DNA from: Marinobacter salinisoli | GTDB taxonomy: Bacteria; Pseudomonadota; Gammaproteobacteria; Pseudomonadales; Oleiphilaceae | NCBI RefSeq assembly: GCF_017301335.1 | Contig: NZ_CP071247.1 | Location: 2,790,001-2,854,000, forward strand | Reading direction: 5' to 3' | Length of the DNA stretch: 64,000 bases | Shown here: positions 16,581 through 24,068 of the stretch, piece by piece | How positions within the stretch are numbered: the stretch's first letter is position 1 | Layout of the letters: every line of letters starts with the position of its first letter | Translations under genes and position numbers: made by a program | The notes under the pieces: model-generated | Told to the model about the DNA's origin: nothing | Databases searched by the model: none | The model's input: only the letters and a program-made list of their open reading frames with translations

Positions 16581-17852
16581 ATGACCGACAGGAAAGCCAC
16601 GCTCTCGGTGGGAGATAAGTCCATTGAGTTACCGGTGTATTCTGGCACCGTCGGCCCTGACGTAATTGACGTTCGCGCCTTGGTTCAGGAAGGTGTTTTC
16701 ACTTACGACCCAGGTTTCGTATCTACCGCAGCCTGCGAATCAGCCATCACCTATATCGATGGCGCCAATGGCGTTCTCCTTCATCGCGGCTACCCCATTG
16801 ACCAGCTGGCAGAGCACTCGGACTACCTCGAAGTGTGCTACCTGCTGCTGAAGGGACGCCTGCCGACCAAAGAAGAGAACCAGCAGTTCCACAGCACCAT
16901 TAAAAATCACACCATGCTTCACGATCAGATGCGCAACTTCTTCCACGGCTTCCGCCGTGACGCGCATCCGATGGCCATTATGTGTGGTGTTGTGGGCGCC
17001 CTGTCTGCGTTCTATCACGACCAGATGGATGTCGCCGACGAGCGCCAGCGTGAAATCACGGCGCATCGCCTGATTGCCAAGATGCCAACCATTGCCGCCT
17101 GGTGTTACAAGTACAGCATTGGTCAGCCATTTATGTATCCTCGCAACGATCTGACCTATGCCGAGAACTTCCTGTACATGATGTTTGGTGTGCCCTGCGA
17201 GGAGTACAAGCCGAATCCGGTTCTGGCCAAGGCTATGGATCGGATCTTCATTCTTCACGCCGACCACGAGCAGAACGCCTCTACCTCTACGGTTCGCTTG
17301 GCGGGCTCAACCGGTGCCAACCCATACGCCTGCATCGCTTCCGGCATTGCAGCCCTGTGGGGGCCGGCTCACGGCGGCGCGAACGAGGCCGTACTGGATA
17401 TGCTTGCCGAAATTGGCGACGAGTCCAACATTGAGACGTTCATCGCCAAGGCCAAGGACAAGAACGATCCCTTCCGCCTGATGGGCTTCGGGCACCGGGT
17501 GTACAAGAACTTTGATCCGCGCGCCAAGGTGATGCGTGAGACCGCTCATGAAGTTCTTCAGGAACTGGGCCTGGAAAACGATCCCCTGCTGAAGATCGCC
17601 CAGCGGCTTGAAAAGATTGCCCTTGAAGACGACTATTTCGTGCAGCGAAAGCTGTATCCGAACGTCGACTTCTACTCCGGCATCATCCTGAAAGCCATGG
17701 GTATCCCAACCTCGATGTTCACGGTCATCTTCGCCCTGTCCCGCACCATTGGCTGGTTCTCGCACTGGAACGAAATGGTCAGCGGCGACTACCGGATCGG
17801 GCGTCCGCGCCAGCTTTACACTGGCCCTGAAAAACAGGATTATCCGGGATAA
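16581..17852 (+). CDS. gltA: Citrate synthase (type II, hexameric)
   Basis: Condenses acetyl-CoA with oxaloacetate, the entry to the TCA cycle. The 423 residues match the large NADH-sensitive Gram-negative type. Active-site segments are the first His in [15 protein letters not shown], the second in [14 protein letters not shown], and the acidic residue in [26 protein letters not shown] is the family signature. ATG 16581 follows TAGGAGAGTCCC. A strong terminator follows, so gltA is monocistronic. Confidence 0.97.
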
Positions 17853-19358: not shown

Positions 19359-19453
19359 GCCCTATCCTGGGCCCAAAGCAATCCCCTTCAACCAAGCAGC
19401 CATTGCTCCAAAAAAGCTTCAGCTTACTGAAAAATATAGCTTTTATTTTAGCT

Positions 19454-19469
19454 TGGCACGGACACTGCT
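19454..19469 (+). promoter_or_regulatory. Sigma-54 (RpoN) type -24/-12 promoter
   Basis: TGGCACG (19454-19460), four bases, then CTGCT (19465-19469). GG to GC spacing is exactly 12 positions (19456 to 19468), and the match to TGGCACG-N4-TTGCT lacks only one T. Start of transcription expected near 19480. Such promoters need an AAA+ activator (for example NorR, NtrC, CbrB or DctD type); none is encoded in the window. Confidence 0.65.
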
Positions 19470-19479
19470 GTGTAAGCCT

Positions 19480-19607
19480 TACATGCCAATGATGGCAAGC
19501 CAGATGTTTCGCGGGCACAGCACAGTCTCTCCCGCAGAACTCGCAATCTCGACAACGTATCAAGGACAAAAGGGTCCAGTCCGGTTTCCGGAGTGGACCC
19601 TTTTTTG
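19480..19607 (+). ncRNA. Candidate small RNA or attenuated leader
   Basis: Between the inferred sigma-54 start and a very strong intrinsic terminator lies about 128 bases with no credible coding frame and three possible hairpins: TGCCA-atga-TGGCA (19484-19497), GCGGG...CCCGC (19511-19535) and the terminator. It may be a free-standing sRNA, as CrcZ-like or NrsZ-like sigma-54 sRNAs are, or a leader that controls entry to the electron-transfer operon starting at 19634. I see no repeated CA-rich Hfq/Crc-type motifs, so a CrcZ identity is not supported. Confidence 0.45.
19568..19606 (+). terminator. Strong terminator 27 bases before the electron-transfer operon
   Basis: GGGTCCA-g-TCCGG-ttt-CCGGA-g-TGGACCC forms a 13-position stem with a single G-G mismatch, flanked by AAAA and TTTTTTGTTTT. 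It ends at 19606 and the next gene starts at 19634, so transcription from 19454 must read through it, or be regulated by it, to reach the gene. Confidence 0.9.
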
Positions 19608-19633
19608 TTTTCAAAGGACGAGTACGCAAACGC

Positions 19634-21592
19634 ATGGGCACAAAATTTCCTGCACAGCAGGCGCTGTACGCCCCCGCTCAGTCGCTCCCAGATGAGCCAA
19701 TCATCATTGTTGGCAACGGTCCTGCTGGCGTTCATCTGTTAAAAGAGCTAAAGCGGCTCGGGGTCGATCGGCCCATCATCCAGTTCGGCAGGGAACAAAG
19801 CCAACCCTATGACCGGGTAGCACTATCCAACCTCTTACAGGGCAAAGTCACTGCCGATTCCCTGCTTGCGTCACTCGGGGACTTTTCGAACGTCAATTTT
19901 CAGTCTGGAAACGCGATCGTGTCCATTCAGACTGACTTGCGTACCGTCACAGACCAACAGGGATTGAGCTATCCCTATGGCGCCCTGGTTCTTGCTCTGG
20001 GCTCCCGGCCCCACGTGCCCGGTATACCGGGCCGTAAACTTTCTGGCGTTTTTACCTTCCGCAGCATCAACGATGTGGAACGATTGCGCTCACGGCATTT
20101 TCGCAGTCGACATTGCGTGGTTCTGGGTGGAGGACTTCTGGGGATTGAGGCGGCAAGGGGCATGCTGCGGTACGGCACGAAAGTGACCGTGATTCACCAC
20201 GCCCCTTTCCTGATGAACCGACAACTTGAACCACAAAGCGGTGACAGGCTTCGCCATGAACTGGAAGACAAAGGCCTGAAGGTCCTGCTGAATTCAACCA
20301 TCACCGACATCCTGGGTCACGACCGTGTGGAGCAAGTTCGTCTACGAGGCGGCGAAATCCTTGATTGCGACACTGTGATCTTCTCCACGGGCATCCGCCC
20401 CAACATCGAGCTGGCGCGACATGCCGGGATTGTTGTTGGGCAGGGCATTCAGATAAATGATCAACTGCAGACCTCCGCTCCTGATGTCTACGCCATTGGC
20501 GAATGCTCTGAACACAGGGGCGAAATCTACGGATTGGTATCACCGGGCCTTGAACAAGCCGCCGTACTTGCCAGCAGACTGAGCGGCGCCAACGTGTGTT
20601 ATCAGGGTTCTGCGCTTGCCAGTTCACTCAAGGTCTCCGATATCCCGGTCAACAGTGCCGGCACGGTGAGCGAATACGGCCCTGCGCTGATTGACTGTAC
20701 GCTCAGACACGCCTCCGATCAGCACTCTAGGGCTATTACGTTGTATCGGGGCAAGCTTGTCGGCGCTGCCGGAACCGGAGAATGGCCGGAATTTCACAGG
20801 TTGCAGGAGGCGATCAGCAAACAGTTGCCAGTGTACCCGTGGCAACGCCGGCGATTTGTCCGGGACGGCCGGCTGTACACGGATGATCAGATATTGCCCG
20901 ACAGTGCGATCCTGTGTAACTGCCGTCGCCTGACCGCCGGTGAGATTCGCGGCCACATGCAAGAAGGGATGACTACCCGACAACTGTGTGAGGCCTCGGG
21001 TGCGGCTCAGGTTTGTGGGAGCTGCGAGCCCCTGGTGGCCAGAGTGGCAGCCTCTCCGGTTGAAGCCAAGCCGATCAGCAGCTTCCCTCTCATTGCCGGG
21101 CTAATTGCTCTGGCTTACGCCCTGCTTTTTTACCTGGTGCCGCCATTCCCAATCCAACAAAGCGTGCTGGAGCCGGCGTGGCCCAAACTCTGGACGAGCA
21201 ACGTGGCGAGGCAATGGACCGGCTATACCCTTTTGAGCCTGATAGCGCTCGGCATGGTAGTCAGCCTTGCCAAGCGAGGACCTCAGGGGCTCTTAAAGCG
21301 ATTCAAACTGGCCCGCAACGCCCACCTCTTGCTGACCCTTTTAATGGCCTCCGTCCTGCTCGTCCATACCGGCCTCCAGCAGAGCACCAACCTCAATTTC
21401 GCCCTGCTTAGCTGCGCCATCGCTTTGATCACCCTTGGTGGAGTGACCTCTATCATGGTTGCGCTTGAGCCGCGTATTCAAAGCCTCGCGTTCAAATCTT
21501 GGAAGCGACGCCTGGCCAGCCTACACCTCTTCCTGGCGTGGCCACTTCCGGTGTTGCTTGGGTTTCACATTGTCTCGGTGTACTACTTCTAA
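19634..21592 (+). CDS. FAD/NAD(P)H oxidoreductase - BFD [2Fe-2S] - diheme membrane fusion
   Basis: A 652-residue fusion. Residues 22-330: a NirB/rubredoxin-reductase-like FAD and NAD(P)H dehydrogenase (IIIVGNGPAGVHLLKEL; HCVVLGGGLLGIEAARG; DVYAIGECSEH). Residues 428-464: a BFD-type [2Fe-2S] site, C428-x-C430 and C461-x2-C464. Residues 483-652: five hydrophobic helices, with H564/H578 and H631/H645 each spaced HX13H on two helices, as expected for two b hemes between helices in ferric-reductase or cytochrome-b-like membrane domains. The siroheme domains of NirB are absent. Electrons could thus pass from NAD(P)H to the outer side of the inner membrane. It is 8 bases before the multiheme cytochrome gene. 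The ribosome site (AAAGGACGAG) is some 14 bases before the ATG, rather far. Exact function unknown. Confidence 0.85.
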   Translation: MGTKFPAQQALYAPAQSLPDEPIIIVGNGPAGVHLLKELKRLGVDRPIIQFGREQSQPYDRVALSNLLQGKVTADSLLASLGDFSNVNFQSGNAIVSIQTDLRTVTDQQGLSYPYGALVLALGSRPHVPGIPGRKLSGVFTFRSINDVERLRSRHFRSRHCVVLGGGLLGIEAARGMLRYGTKVTVIHHAPFLMNRQLEPQSGDRLRHELEDKGLKVLLNSTITDILGHDRVEQVRLRGGEILDCDTVIFSTGIRPNIELARHAGIVVGQGIQINDQLQTSAPDVYAIGECSEHRGEIYGLVSPGLEQAAVLASRLSGANVCYQGSALASSLKVSDIPVNSAGTVSEYGPALIDCTLRHASDQHSRAITLYRGKLVGAAGTGEWPEFHRLQEAISKQLPVYPWQRRRFVRDGRLYTDDQILPDSAILCNCRRLTAGEIRGHMQEGMTTRQLCEASGAAQVCGSCEPLVARVAASPVEAKPISSFPLIAGLIALAYALLFYLVPPFPIQQSVLEPAWPKLWTSNVARQWTGYTLLSLIALGMVVSLAKRGPQGLLKRFKLARNAHLLLTLLMASVLLVHTGLQQSTNLNFALLSCAIALITLGGVTSIMVALEPRIQSLAFKSWKRRLASLHLFLAWPLPVLLGFHIVSVYYF

Positions 21593-21600
21593 GGCGCAGT

Positions 21601-22944
21601 ATGGGAAAGAAAACGATTTGGCTCCTCTGGCTTAGCTCAAGCATCGTGTTATCGAGCGTGCTCGGATACGAACTGTTCGCAAAAGACCAGAAACCCCACT
21701 TCCTTCCCGGGCAGACCACGGCCGGCCACTTCCAGATCGAGCTGGAATGCAGCACCTGCCACACCGAATCGTTCGCAGATCAGCAAGCCATCCAACAGGC
21801 CTGTATCGATTGCCACGGTGCCGAGCTTGACGCGGTCCGCGATAGCCACCCCAAAAGCAAGTTCACCGATCCGCGAAATGCCGACCGCCTTGCACAGATC
21901 GACGCCCGCTATTGTGTCAGTTGCCACAGCGAGCATACGCCAGAAATAACTCTGGCCATGGGCGTCACTCAGCCCGAGGATTTCTGCGTCCACTGTCACC
22001 AGGAGATCGCAGCGGACCGCCCCAGTCACGAGGGCATGGGCTTTGAAACCTGCGCATCAGCCGGCTGCCACAATTACCACGACAATCAGGCCTTATACGA
22101 AGATTTCCTGCTCGAACACGCCGATGAACCAGCGCTCATCGTCGCCGGAAAGCTTCCGGTAAGCAGCATGGAAGCGCTGATGGAAGTGTCGGGCCTATCC
22201 TGGGCCCCCTACGATCCTGCCAGCAACGCTTTTGACGACCAACAAGCCTGGCAGAGCGCTCACGACGAGTGGGCCGGTAGCGCCCATGGCGCGTCAGATG
22301 TGGGGTGCGAAAATTGCCACCAGCCGGAGCCGCAGACCGACTGGATTGAGCATCCCGGCACGGATACCTGCGCCCGCTGCCACGAAGCAGAATCCCAAGG
22401 CTTTATATCTGGACGGCATGGAATGCGCCTGTCTCAGGGCCTGCCGCCCATGACTCCGGGCGAGGCCCGACTTCCCATGAAGAATGATGCGGCTCACCGG
22501 CAACTCACGTGTAACAGCTGCCACGCCCCCCACGAACAAAACACCGTGACGGCGGCGGTGGAGGCTTGCCTGGGCTGCCATAACGACAACCACTCCCTGG
22601 CGTTCAAGCAGTCACCGCATCATCAGACCTGGAAACGTTTTCTTGATGGGAAGGTCGCCAGAGAGGAGGCCGTCAGCTGCGCCACCTGTCATTTGCCACG
22701 AACCGAGACCAAGCAGTTCAGCACCACCACTGTTCGAGTGGATCACAATCAGAACAACACCTTGCGCCCGAACGAAAAAATGATCCGAACCACTTGCATG
22801 CATTGCCATGGTTTGGGTTTCTCCCTCGATGCTCTGGCATCCGAGGCTCTTATTCAGTCCAATTTCACAGGCCTGCCGCCAACCCACATACCAAGCATCG
22901 ACATGGCACTGGATCGGATTGAACCAAGCACTACCACCCCGTAA
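21601..22944 (+). CDS. Undecaheme c-type cytochrome
   Basis: A 447-residue periplasmic cytochrome with an N-terminal hydrophobic signal or anchor (residues 6-26). Ten CXXCH heme sites (C50, C68, C105, C129, C236, C257, C304, C323, C360, C399) plus one unusual CX4CH (C151ASAGCH157) give eleven potential hemes. It is most like cytochrome c3/nitrite-reductase-associated multiheme families, but I do not recognise the family as characterised. The frame is open upstream to 21499 within the preceding gene; ATG 21601 is chosen because it gives the signal sequence and an 8-base gap. It probably receives electrons from the diheme membrane domain encoded just upstream. Terminal acceptor unknown. Confidence 0.88.
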   Translation: MGKKTIWLLWLSSSIVLSSVLGYELFAKDQKPHFLPGQTTAGHFQIELECSTCHTESFADQQAIQQACIDCHGAELDAVRDSHPKSKFTDPRNADRLAQIDARYCVSCHSEHTPEITLAMGVTQPEDFCVHCHQEIAADRPSHEGMGFETCASAGCHNYHDNQALYEDFLLEHADEPALIVAGKLPVSSMEALMEVSGLSWAPYDPASNAFDDQQAWQSAHDEWAGSAHGASDVGCENCHQPEPQTDWIEHPGTDTCARCHEAESQGFISGRHGMRLSQGLPPMTPGEARLPMKNDAAHRQLTCNSCHAPHEQNTVTAAVEACLGCHNDNHSLAFKQSPHHQTWKRFLDGKVAREEAVSCATCHLPRTETKQFSTTTVRVDHNQNNTLRPNEKMIRTTCMHCHGLGFSLDALASEALIQSNFTGLPPTHIPSIDMALDRIEPSTTTP

Positions 22945-22962
22945 AAACGATGGAGAGAGACC

Positions 22963-23547
22963 ATGAAAAAAGGAATCACCACCAGCGCCTTAGTTGCCAC
23001 TGCACTGCTCGCCGGTTGCGGAGGCTCGGAAGAGCCTCCGCAGACCGGCATTGAACCCAAGATATTCACCGACTCCCTGTTTGCCGTCATGAACTCGGAC
23101 CGAGCCAACTACACCAAGCTCATCGTTCAACGTCTCGGGCCGAATGGCGCAGACGCCATCAAGCCCAATGAGCACTGGGAAGACATGGAGGGCTCTGCCC
23201 CGCTCCCGGCCCAAATGTTCCGCTATGGCGCAGAAGGTGTAGCGGACGTAACCGATGCGTTCAGCTACTCACTGCAGTCGCTGTGGCCGGTCAACAAGCA
23301 AAATGCCCCGAAAACGGAAGTAGAACAAGAAGGCTTGCAGTTTATTGCCGACAACCCCGGCCAGAATTTCTATGGGGAGGAAACGCTCGGAGATACGACC
23401 TACTTTACCGCGGTTTACCCGGACGTAGCGGTGTCCCCGGCGTGCACGTCCTGTCATAACGACCACAAGGATTCCCCCAGAAGCGACTTCGAGATCGGCG
23501 AAGTCATGGGCGGCGTGGTCATTCGCCTTCCCCTGCCAAAGAGCTAA
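22963..23547 (+). CDS. DUF3365-type heme-binding lipoprotein
   Basis: A 194-residue lipoprotein: the signal ends with the lipobox LLAGC (C19). The C-terminal segment PACTSCHNDHKDSPRSDFE, followed by IGEVMGGVVIRLPL, carries a single CXXCH heme site (C161-H165) in the setting typical of the DUF3365/Tll0287-like domain, found both alone and as the sensory part of histidine kinases. Such domains are thought to sense redox state or gas ligands. It lies 18 bases after the multiheme cytochrome and 27 before the globin, so it is probably a periplasmic partner, either an electron carrier or a ligand sensor. Function is inferred from family and context. Confidence 0.82.
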   Translation: MKKGITTSALVATALLAGCGGSEEPPQTGIEPKIFTDSLFAVMNSDRANYTKLIVQRLGPNGADAIKPNEHWEDMEGSAPLPAQMFRYGAEGVADVTDAFSYSLQSLWPVNKQNAPKTEVEQEGLQFIADNPGQNFYGEETLGDTTYFTAVYPDVAVSPACTSCHNDHKDSPRSDFEIGEVMGGVVIRLPLPKS

Positions 23548-23574
23548 CTCAAAGCCCATCAGCGAGGCAATACC

Positions 23575-23988
23575 ATGAATGCACAACAAATCACCCTCGT
23601 TCAGGATTCCTTTGCCAAGGTAGTTCCTATCGCGGATCAGGCAGCGGCGATGTTTTACAGCAAGCTGTTTGAAATGGACCCGGAACTGAAGCCCCTGTTC
23701 AAAGGCGACATGAAAGAACAGGGCCAGAAGTTAATGAAAATGATCGGTATGGCCGTCAACAGCCTGGGGCGGCTTGATGAGATCGTGCCGGCAGTACAAC
23801 AGCTTGGTGTGCGACACGCCGGTTACGGCGTCAAGGACTCCGACTACGACACGGTAGGCGGTGCGCTGCTCTGGACCCTGGAACAAGGGCTTGGTGAAAA
23901 CTTCACGCCAGATTGCAAAGCTGCCTGGACTGAAACCTACACGGTGCTGGCAACCACTATGAAAGACGCCACCAAAGCACCGGCGTAA
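23575..23988 (+). CDS. Single-domain globin (bacterial hemoglobin)
   Basis: A 137-residue globin of the flavohemoglobin/Vitreoscilla hemoglobin class without a reductase domain. The B10 Tyr lies in MFYSKLF, the distal E7 Gln in EQGQKLM, and the proximal His in LGVRHAGYGV; TVGGALLWTLEQGLG is the H-helix start. The Tyr/Gln distal pair is typical of O2- and NO-reactive globins (NO dioxygenation). It has no signal peptide, so it is cytoplasmic. It is the last gene of the four-gene operon and is followed by a strong terminator. It would need a separate reductase; the flavoprotein fusion at 19634 is a possible one, by inference. Confidence 0.9.
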   Translation: MNAQQITLVQDSFAKVVPIADQAAAMFYSKLFEMDPELKPLFKGDMKEQGQKLMKMIGMAVNSLGRLDEIVPAVQQLGVRHAGYGVKDSDYDTVGGALLWTLEQGLGENFTPDCKAAWTETYTVLATTMKDATKAPA

Positions 23989-24014
23989 GATCGAAAACTG
24001 GAGATCATATCGAG

Positions 24015-24042
24015 AAAAAGGGGCAGATCTCTGCCCCTTTTT
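24015..24042. terminator. Bidirectional terminator between globin and topA
   Basis: AAAAAGGGGCAGA-tc-TCTGCCCCTTTTTT: an 8-bp stem with A and T runs on both sides, between the converging globin (stop 23988) and topA (stop 24069) genes. It should end transcripts from both directions. Confidence 0.92.
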
Positions 24043-24068
24043 TACTCAACGTCTGTGCGATGCCTCGA

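Follow-up and report, generated by a model that had tools for sequence, protein, structure and literature searches.

Marinobacter salinisoli carries, in the 64,000-nucleotide stretch of its genome analysed here (referred to as the window), an operon of four + strand genes that encode a NirB-like fusion protein, an undecaheme cytochrome c, a c-heme Cache lipoprotein and a single-domain globin. The system is real and conserved and, as far as searches of the open-access literature (PubMed Central) show, undescribed. Its proteins would form an electron conduit driven by reduced nicotinamide adenine dinucleotide (phosphate), NAD(P)H, and crossing the membrane, a reading that is well supported as such. 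The conduit may work within a nitrate-assimilation and nitric oxide (NO) programme; a probability of about 0.48 is assigned to this fuller reading. Gene layout, invariant ligands, gene conservation and the leader are read directly from the sequence, and from them we infer the function of the system: where in the cell the conduit would lie, which way its electrons would flow, what its substrate may be and where the reaction probably takes place.

Gene order and conservation

The fusion gene occupies positions 19634-21592 of the window and is followed by those of the cytochrome (21601-22944), the lipoprotein (22963-23547) and the globin (23575-23988), with 8, 18 and 27 bases between the four open reading frames. 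These frames, gaps and motifs were reported in a preliminary description of this DNA, and they are confirmed by the list of open reading frames and by profile matches; the single operon proposed there is likewise supported. The same description placed the genes between a sigma-54-type promoter and a strong terminator. Both the promoter-like site and the intrinsic terminator at the operon end (24020-24043, + strand, read from the sequence) stand, but a second terminator in the leader, at 19572-19606, had been overlooked. Neither terminator is among the + strand listings of the terminator scan, whose six matches in the window are near the number expected by chance (5.3).

Relatives were collected from three sources, namely the cytochrome in genome contigs (17 used of 18), the membrane domain of the fusion in the order, and a cytochrome profile in the class and the phylum. 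The membrane domain was found in 31 of 293 genomes of the order (in 30 with E no higher than 2e-11), and the cytochrome profile in 27 of 369 genomes of the class and 3 of 349 of the phylum, with the own genome counted each time. Removal of duplicates gave 67 distinct loci, the window included. Dropped were L085, L087 and L097, which are the same contigs as L065, L071 and L066; L138, L139 and L150, whose cytochrome ends are identical to those of L067, L070 and L079; and L163 (cytochrome unplaced), L080 (a partial 21% match) and G315 (weak). L187 stands outside the set. The cut contigs L108, L146, L147 and L162 were retained, and genes absent there score as misses.

The fusion gene lies directly upstream of the cytochrome gene in 65/67 loci (17/17 and 21/23 of those found via the cytochrome, and 26/26 of those found via the fusion, all of which have the cytochrome). 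The lipoprotein gene is present in 66/67 loci, and in 64 it is on the same strand and at most 1 kb downstream. The globin gene is found in 33/67 loci only, and therefore the core consists of three genes. Of the four-gene unit envisaged in the preliminary description, the first three genes are strongly co-conserved and the globin is optional. Comparing the distance matrices between the four proteins gives correlations of r 0.49-0.70; 0 of 2000 permutations reach any of these values, for which shared species history could suffice.

Records with the operon include metagenome assemblies titled Dadabacteria and Planctomycetales, where binning errors are possible, and two more Marinobacter records. 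The idea that the fusion is a common gene of the genus was rejected, as it occurs in 1 of 61 sampled genomes and the other 22 matches reach just 20-25 bits, mostly over the [2Fe-2S] stretch of long frames. Among plasmids, none of the 4019 records matching the fusion has one place covering 80%.

Redox proteins of the predicted conduit

In the fusion protein a flavin adenine dinucleotide (FAD)/NAD(P)H half is joined to a [2Fe-2S] site of the BFD type, and a diheme membrane domain of five segments follows. The NirB model TIGR02374 matches residues 23-472 with 345 bits, below the whole-protein cut-off of 578; Pyr_redox_2 scores 191.9 bits, and Fer2_BFD covers residues 426-471 at 22.6 bits, where the cut-off is 26. 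The hydrophobic segments, obtained by merging overlapping windows by eye, are 484-502, 528-546, 563-581, 591-609 and 632-650. The membrane part contains exactly four His (564, 578, 631 and 645), which form two HX13H pairs. These His and the cysteines C428, C430, C461 and C464 are kept in 56/56 homologues with a NirB half. A set of 17 membrane domains, GPP34-type and stand-alone ones among them, likewise shows no variation in the four His. Since the loops 547-558 and 610-631 carry five Lys/Arg apiece, the positive-inside rule suggests that the flavin part and both loops are cytoplasmic and that the C-terminus is outside. Such a topology would bring one His pair near each membrane face, as a two-heme wire requires. 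The order proposed earlier, from NAD(P)H through FAD, [2Fe-2S] and two b hemes to c hemes, is supported, with invariant ligands. No match of the membrane-domain profile to solved structures was obtained up to E 10. Five of the 17 members match PF01292 and four match PF14358 at E<=0.1 (best 3.6e-5); the window domain scores 17.4 with PF01292 (cytochrome b561) compared with a cut-off of 30.1, and the resemblance to b561/DUF4405 is weak.

The flavin half is variable. In the domain scan a GPP34 (Golgi phosphoprotein 3 type) domain replaces the NirB half in L062 (= L109), L076 and L078, and L079, near-identical to L078, was judged by eye to be alike. Downstream of these GPP34-membrane domain fusions (L062:1495-2667, L076:4871-6982, L078:5776-6969 and L079:5720-6970) come the usual cytochrome and lipoprotein, and in L073 the diheme membrane domain stands on its own. 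With the NirB half swapped or absent in such relatives, the cytoplasmic donor can apparently change, and the common core, as judged from gene content, is the diheme membrane domain with the undecaheme cytochrome and the lipoprotein. In L091 (G230) the fusion and cytochrome genes are each broken over several frames, which may reflect a damaged copy or sequencing errors.

The cytochrome has an N-terminal hydrophobic segment, ten CXXCH motifs and one CX4CH motif, and all eleven heme sites are invariant in 42 homologues. Ten further His are invariant as well, and His311, the eleventh, is kept in 98% of the sequences; because of these eleven His, the predicted function of the protein leans toward electron transfer rather than catalysis. 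Its C-terminal half is akin to NrfA and octaheme nitrite reductases, and it might be argued that the cytochrome itself reduces nitrite (or else hydroxylamine or NO) in the periplasm with electrons from NAD(P)H and so provides a second assimilatory route beside NirBD. Indeed, when the cytochrome profile was compared with solved structures, the best nine of 29 matches were octaheme or pentaheme nitrite reductases, with TvNiR at E 5e-9 and NrfA at 1e-8, and hhalign places cytochrome hemes 6, 7, 8, 10 and 11 opposite hemes 1 to 5 of Escherichia coli NrfA. The NrfA residues Lys126, Tyr216 and His264, which we take to be catalytic, tell in both directions. In the hhalign register Lys126 is opposite His240 and Tyr216 opposite His311, so that two of the three look replaced in the cytochrome; His264 falls in a gap beside Ser338, and the invariant His340 is two positions further. 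HMMER gives a different register, with cytochrome hemes 6-7 opposite NrfA hemes 4-5, so that the hhalign register is provisional. Against a reductase, the further His equal the hemes in number (eleven, ten of them invariant and one at 98%), which would fit bis-His ligation throughout. Family models assign the protein to neither class at their cut-offs (PF02335, NrfA, 16.6 bits versus 24.1; TIGR03508, DmsE/MtrA decaheme, 44 bits versus 192).

The genomic company of the operon bears on the same question. At E<1e-20, a threshold chosen after the table had been seen and with controls taken mostly by handle order, NirD is found in 27/30 operon genomes versus 19/30 operon-free genomes (p 0.03), and G173 has a NirD fragment at 1.7e-16. 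On these figures the operon was rejected as a substitute for NirBD. An operon that accompanies nitrate uptake genes and NirD would suit a reductase, whereas the presence of NirBD itself speaks against one. Taken together, a reductase identity for the cytochrome is considered unlikely, and electron transfer within a conduit is preferred.

The PF02335 search of 143 genomes gave 18 places in 16 of them, of which six are, by coordinates, the undecaheme cytochrome itself. One match is strong (L169), and the others are weak and mostly eight-heme frames where inspected. L171, L179, L180 and L184, with weak PF02335 matches, are eight-heme proteins with long C-terminal tails. A solitary relative of the undecaheme cytochrome lies in L161 (G625:C3:336284-337528), with no fusion or lipoprotein gene in the stretch fetched.

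The lipoprotein is Tll0287-like (PF11845, DUF3365; 61.3 bits, over the cut-off of 24.1). Its single CXXCH is kept in 66/66 sequences, Met85 likewise in 66/66, and none of the 66 has a Cys between the lipoprotein signal and the CXXCH. In the comparison of its profile with solved structures, Tll0287 was the sole match, at E 0.57. According to the available part of a preprint, PF11845 domains are c-heme Cache domains, and the stand-alone members are judged to be of a redox type (PMC12889525). A signalling-type member tested there, with a HAMP domain and without the axial Cys, bound NO tightly, and a stand-alone member held NO weakly and released it fast, with either Cys or Ala at that place (PMC12889525). 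The lipoprotein may be a His/Met carrier or may hold an NO-reactive heme, and the behaviour of the Ala variant, as far as the preprint describes it, would speak against an NO-reactive heme.

A sensing device may also be imagined, in which the lipoprotein and the conduit report the redox or NO state of the periplasm and the flavin half relays it. The tight NO binding of the HAMP-bearing protein, as given in the same portion of the preprint (PMC12889525), lends this some colour, as does the fusion of a Crenothrix relative (L075:4338-6920), which begins with an H-NOX (HNOB) domain (PF07700, E 6e-34). A dehydrogenase combined with eleven hemes speaks for flux instead, and kinases, cyclases and receptors were absent from the scanned part of the clusters common to at least four loci. 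Sensing as the purpose of the operon is thus very improbable.

In the preferred reading, the NirB-like half would pass electrons from cytoplasmic NAD(P)H to FAD and on to the [2Fe-2S] cluster, and the two b hemes of the fused membrane domain would bring them across to the periplasmic face. From there they would pass to the membrane-anchored cytochrome, and the following stop would be the c-heme lipoprotein, plus, in many relatives, a monoheme cytochrome (a monoheme cytochrome c gene is found within the stretch in 25/67 loci). Outward flow would be aided by the membrane potential. In principle the chain could run either way, with NAD(P)+ reduced by periplasmic donors via the conduit. NirB-type flavoproteins oxidise NAD(P)H, however, and inward electron movement works against the membrane potential; the nitrate context likewise requires outward electrons, and reverse flow is the least probable of the alternatives weighed.

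Proposed nitrate and nitric oxide context

The leader of the operon presents, in this order, a sigma-54-like site, a hexaloop hairpin and a terminator, after which the fusion gene starts with ATG at 19634. The site (TGGCACGGACACTGCT, type TGGCAC-N5-CTGCT, 19454-19469) is the one match in the window, where 0.21 are expected; it is weak evidence on its own, because 19 of 100 shuffles hold at least one. The loop of the first hairpin, P1 (19484-19497), is AATGAT, with A1 and G4 as in ANTAR-type hexaloops. A possible second hairpin, P2 (19564-19577), reads GGAC-AAAAGG-GTCC, and its 3' arm sits within the 5' arm of the leader terminator (fold z -3.4), a putative attenuator before gene 1. The Rfam model RF00625 (P11) matches 19442-19601, spanning the promoter, with 30.4 bits and E 3e-5. 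This is the best match of the whole genome, the runner-up having 11.8 bits. P11 also matches L063 ahead of the fusion gene (33.0 bits) and L096 ahead of nrtA (34.8 bits); at E<=0.5 it has no match in L064 or in the own nirBD region L165. We take P11 to be NalA, a nitrate-assimilation leader. In the accessible parts of the papers concerned, NalA is presented as the sigma-54 controlled leader of a nitrate/nitrite assimilation operon (PMC12830290, PMC3973561) whose control involves NtrC and NasT (PMC12830290), and the A1/G4 rule is given for the hexaloops of ANTAR targets (PMC3369931).

A strict pattern, in which the second of two A1/G4 hexaloops overlaps a terminator, was defined with criteria fixed after the leader survey had been seen. 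It occurs in 6/70 leaders from 63 loci (ahead of the fusion in L064, L142, L149 and L158 and ahead of nrtA in L106 and L107) versus 0/1400 shuffles and 0/421 other genes from these loci. With the terminator left out of account, two hexaloops are present in 11/70 leaders versus 8/1400 shuffles and 5/421 other genes.

Clusters of nrtA/nrtB, ANTAR or NarK genes are found in 22/67 loci within the stretch fetched, which extends up to about 10 kb on each side. The neighbour clusters were built by BLAST, with one or two representatives identified per cluster: the NrtA-like one matches PF13379 at 333 bits, the NrtB-like one TIGR01183 at 166 bits, below the cut-off of 209, and those of the NrtC-like (TIGR01184), NarK (TIGR00886) and ANTAR clusters are each over cut-off. 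Although the window has no such neighbours, its leader speaks for a link to nitrate. The own genome has one ANTAR protein, encoded at G000:C1:1044973, whose N-terminus presumably resembles a NIT domain and whose gene lies beside nirBD and a nitrate-permease-like gene, the latter below cut-off. Judged by the leader and the neighbouring genes, nitrate assimilation is favoured over the use of trimethylamine N-oxide, metals or oxygen, which the preliminary description had named for testing.

The window globin matches PF00042 at 69.9 bits, over cut-off, and its nearest solved structures are 3wfw, 3s1i and 3ubc ('Hemoglobin-like flavoprotein'). Tyr28, Gln49 and His81, which we take to be B10, E7 and the proximal F8 His, are kept in 33/33 sequences. 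Ten further loci encode a truncated globin or a hemerythrin-like protein, giving 43/67 together. Five loci have a truncated globin without the single-domain one (PF01152 in one scanned), and in three of these, L083, L089 and L153, a ferredoxin-reductase type gene comes after it. Immediately upstream of the fusion, or one frame further away, L095, L099, L105, L156 and L157, all without globin, carry a hemerythrin-like gene (PF01814 in the one member scanned).

A more general role is conceivable, in which the operon discharges NAD(P)H to periplasmic c hemes, whether for oxidases, for peroxidases or for extracellular acceptors, and is not dedicated to nitrogen oxides. It would be in keeping with the 45/67 loci without nitrate neighbours in the stretch fetched, with the frequent monoheme cytochrome c, with the weak likeness of the membrane domain to b561/DUF4405 and with the GPP34 relatives, in which the donor varies. 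The nitrate leader and neighbours, and the association with globin, truncated globin, hemerythrin-like and H-NOX partners, argue against it. Moreover, no MtrB-type porin is seen among the recurrent neighbours scanned, though no search was aimed at MtrB, and the porin that does recur, in 14/67 loci, is Alginate_exp-like and accompanied by nrtA/nrtB in 12 of the 14. On balance a general outlet for NAD(P)H appears slightly more doubtful than a reductase.

The preferred reading, a conduit within nitrate assimilation and NO handling, thus draws its nitrate link from the P11-like leader and the nrtA/nrtB, ANTAR and NarK neighbours, and its NO link from the globin, truncated globin and hemerythrin-like genes, the H-NOX fusion and the NO-binding PF11845 member known from the available preprint text. 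The likeliest purpose would be the removal of nitrogen oxides, NO first and nitrite second, that arise from nitrate uptake and reduction, with the globin doing its part of this in the cytoplasm, like Bjgb in Bradyrhizobium. A more specific proposal sees a flavohemoglobin-like chain drawn out across the inner membrane (NAD(P)H, FAD, [2Fe-2S], two b and eleven c hemes), switched on with nitrate assimilation, in which the lipoprotein heme, lacking an axial Cys, would destroy periplasmic NO as a dioxygenase with O2 and as a reductase without it, and the globin would do likewise inside; this version is regarded as rather improbable.

Several observations weigh against the link to nitrate and NO. 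The window P11 score of 30.4 falls short of the gathering score, which is 70. At E<=10 the model also matched 9/14 control genomes, with 0 over cut-off. The window leader fails the strict test, the P2 loop AAAAGG having A1 but lacking G4. No nitrate gene of the above kinds is seen in the stretch fetched in 45/67 loci, the window included, and 24/67 loci have no visible globin, truncated globin or hemerythrin-like gene, some contigs being cut. General ANTAR control is not supported: ANTAR is over cut-off in 14/30 operon genomes versus 15/30 others, and therefore antitermination cannot be general. Nor does the missing axial Cys by itself argue for NO binding by the lipoprotein, because the stand-alone member with Cys changed to Ala still released NO fast in the results available from the preprint.

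Six loci, namely the window (at 16581-17852), L063, L064, L077, L095 and L099, have a gene that by eye looks like citrate synthase a few frames before the operon. They share a common chromosomal position in Marinobacter and Microbulbifer-like genomes, yet the fusion is present in 1 of 61 sampled genomes of the genus.

Relation to described systems

If the preferred reading is true, the operon would encode a conduit that leads directly from NAD(P)H to the periplasm, is made from half a nitrite reductase and serves nitrate assimilation rather than respiration. It would provide testable roles for a stand-alone c-heme Cache protein, for a cytochrome related to nitrite reductases and for the globin; the electron source of globins of this kind is often unknown, and the operon offers a candidate role. 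The preliminary description knew of no pathway with this layout, and none turned up in the open-access literature, subscription journals lying mostly outside it.

Each part nevertheless has known relations. NirB shares with the fusion the FAD/NAD(P)H part and the BFD-type [2Fe-2S] cysteines, and in the fusion the five-segment diheme membrane domain stands in place of the remaining NirB. The C-terminal half of the cytochrome aligns with NrfA and octaheme nitrite reductases across five hemes, whereas the whole protein has eleven hemes and no CXXCK, and in the hhalign register His face the catalytic Lys and Tyr of NrfA. The lipoprotein has the PF11845 domain with CXXCH of Tll0287/sCache_heme; the axial Cys of Tll0287 and of the P. 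putida protein is absent from the 66 lipoproteins. The window leader resembles NalA (P11), the leader of Pseudomonas nirBD, in having a sigma-54 promoter, a hairpin and a terminator before gene 1, and differs in preceding this operon, in scoring below gathering and in its variant P2 loop. The Uet pathway of Tenderiales likewise includes an eleven-heme cytochrome, UetJ; compared by description, it is a porin-cytochrome set with tetraheme, triheme and NHL proteins, and the available account mentions no flavoprotein.

For the periplasmic arm no counterpart was found in the open-access literature, as far as the texts were available, and the nearest described system is Bjgb-Flp of Bradyrhizobium japonicum. 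Likened by description, Bjgb-Flp is cytoplasmic, and the accessible part of its report mentions no membrane diheme domain, multiheme cytochrome or c-heme lipoprotein (PMC4724949). It nevertheless resembles the present operon in pairing a single-domain globin with an FAD/NAD(P)H flavoprotein, and it belongs to a nitrate-assimilation operon, narK-bjgb-flp-nasC, that according to the same part is controlled by NasS-NasT and protects the cell from the NO of nitrate assimilation (PMC4724949).

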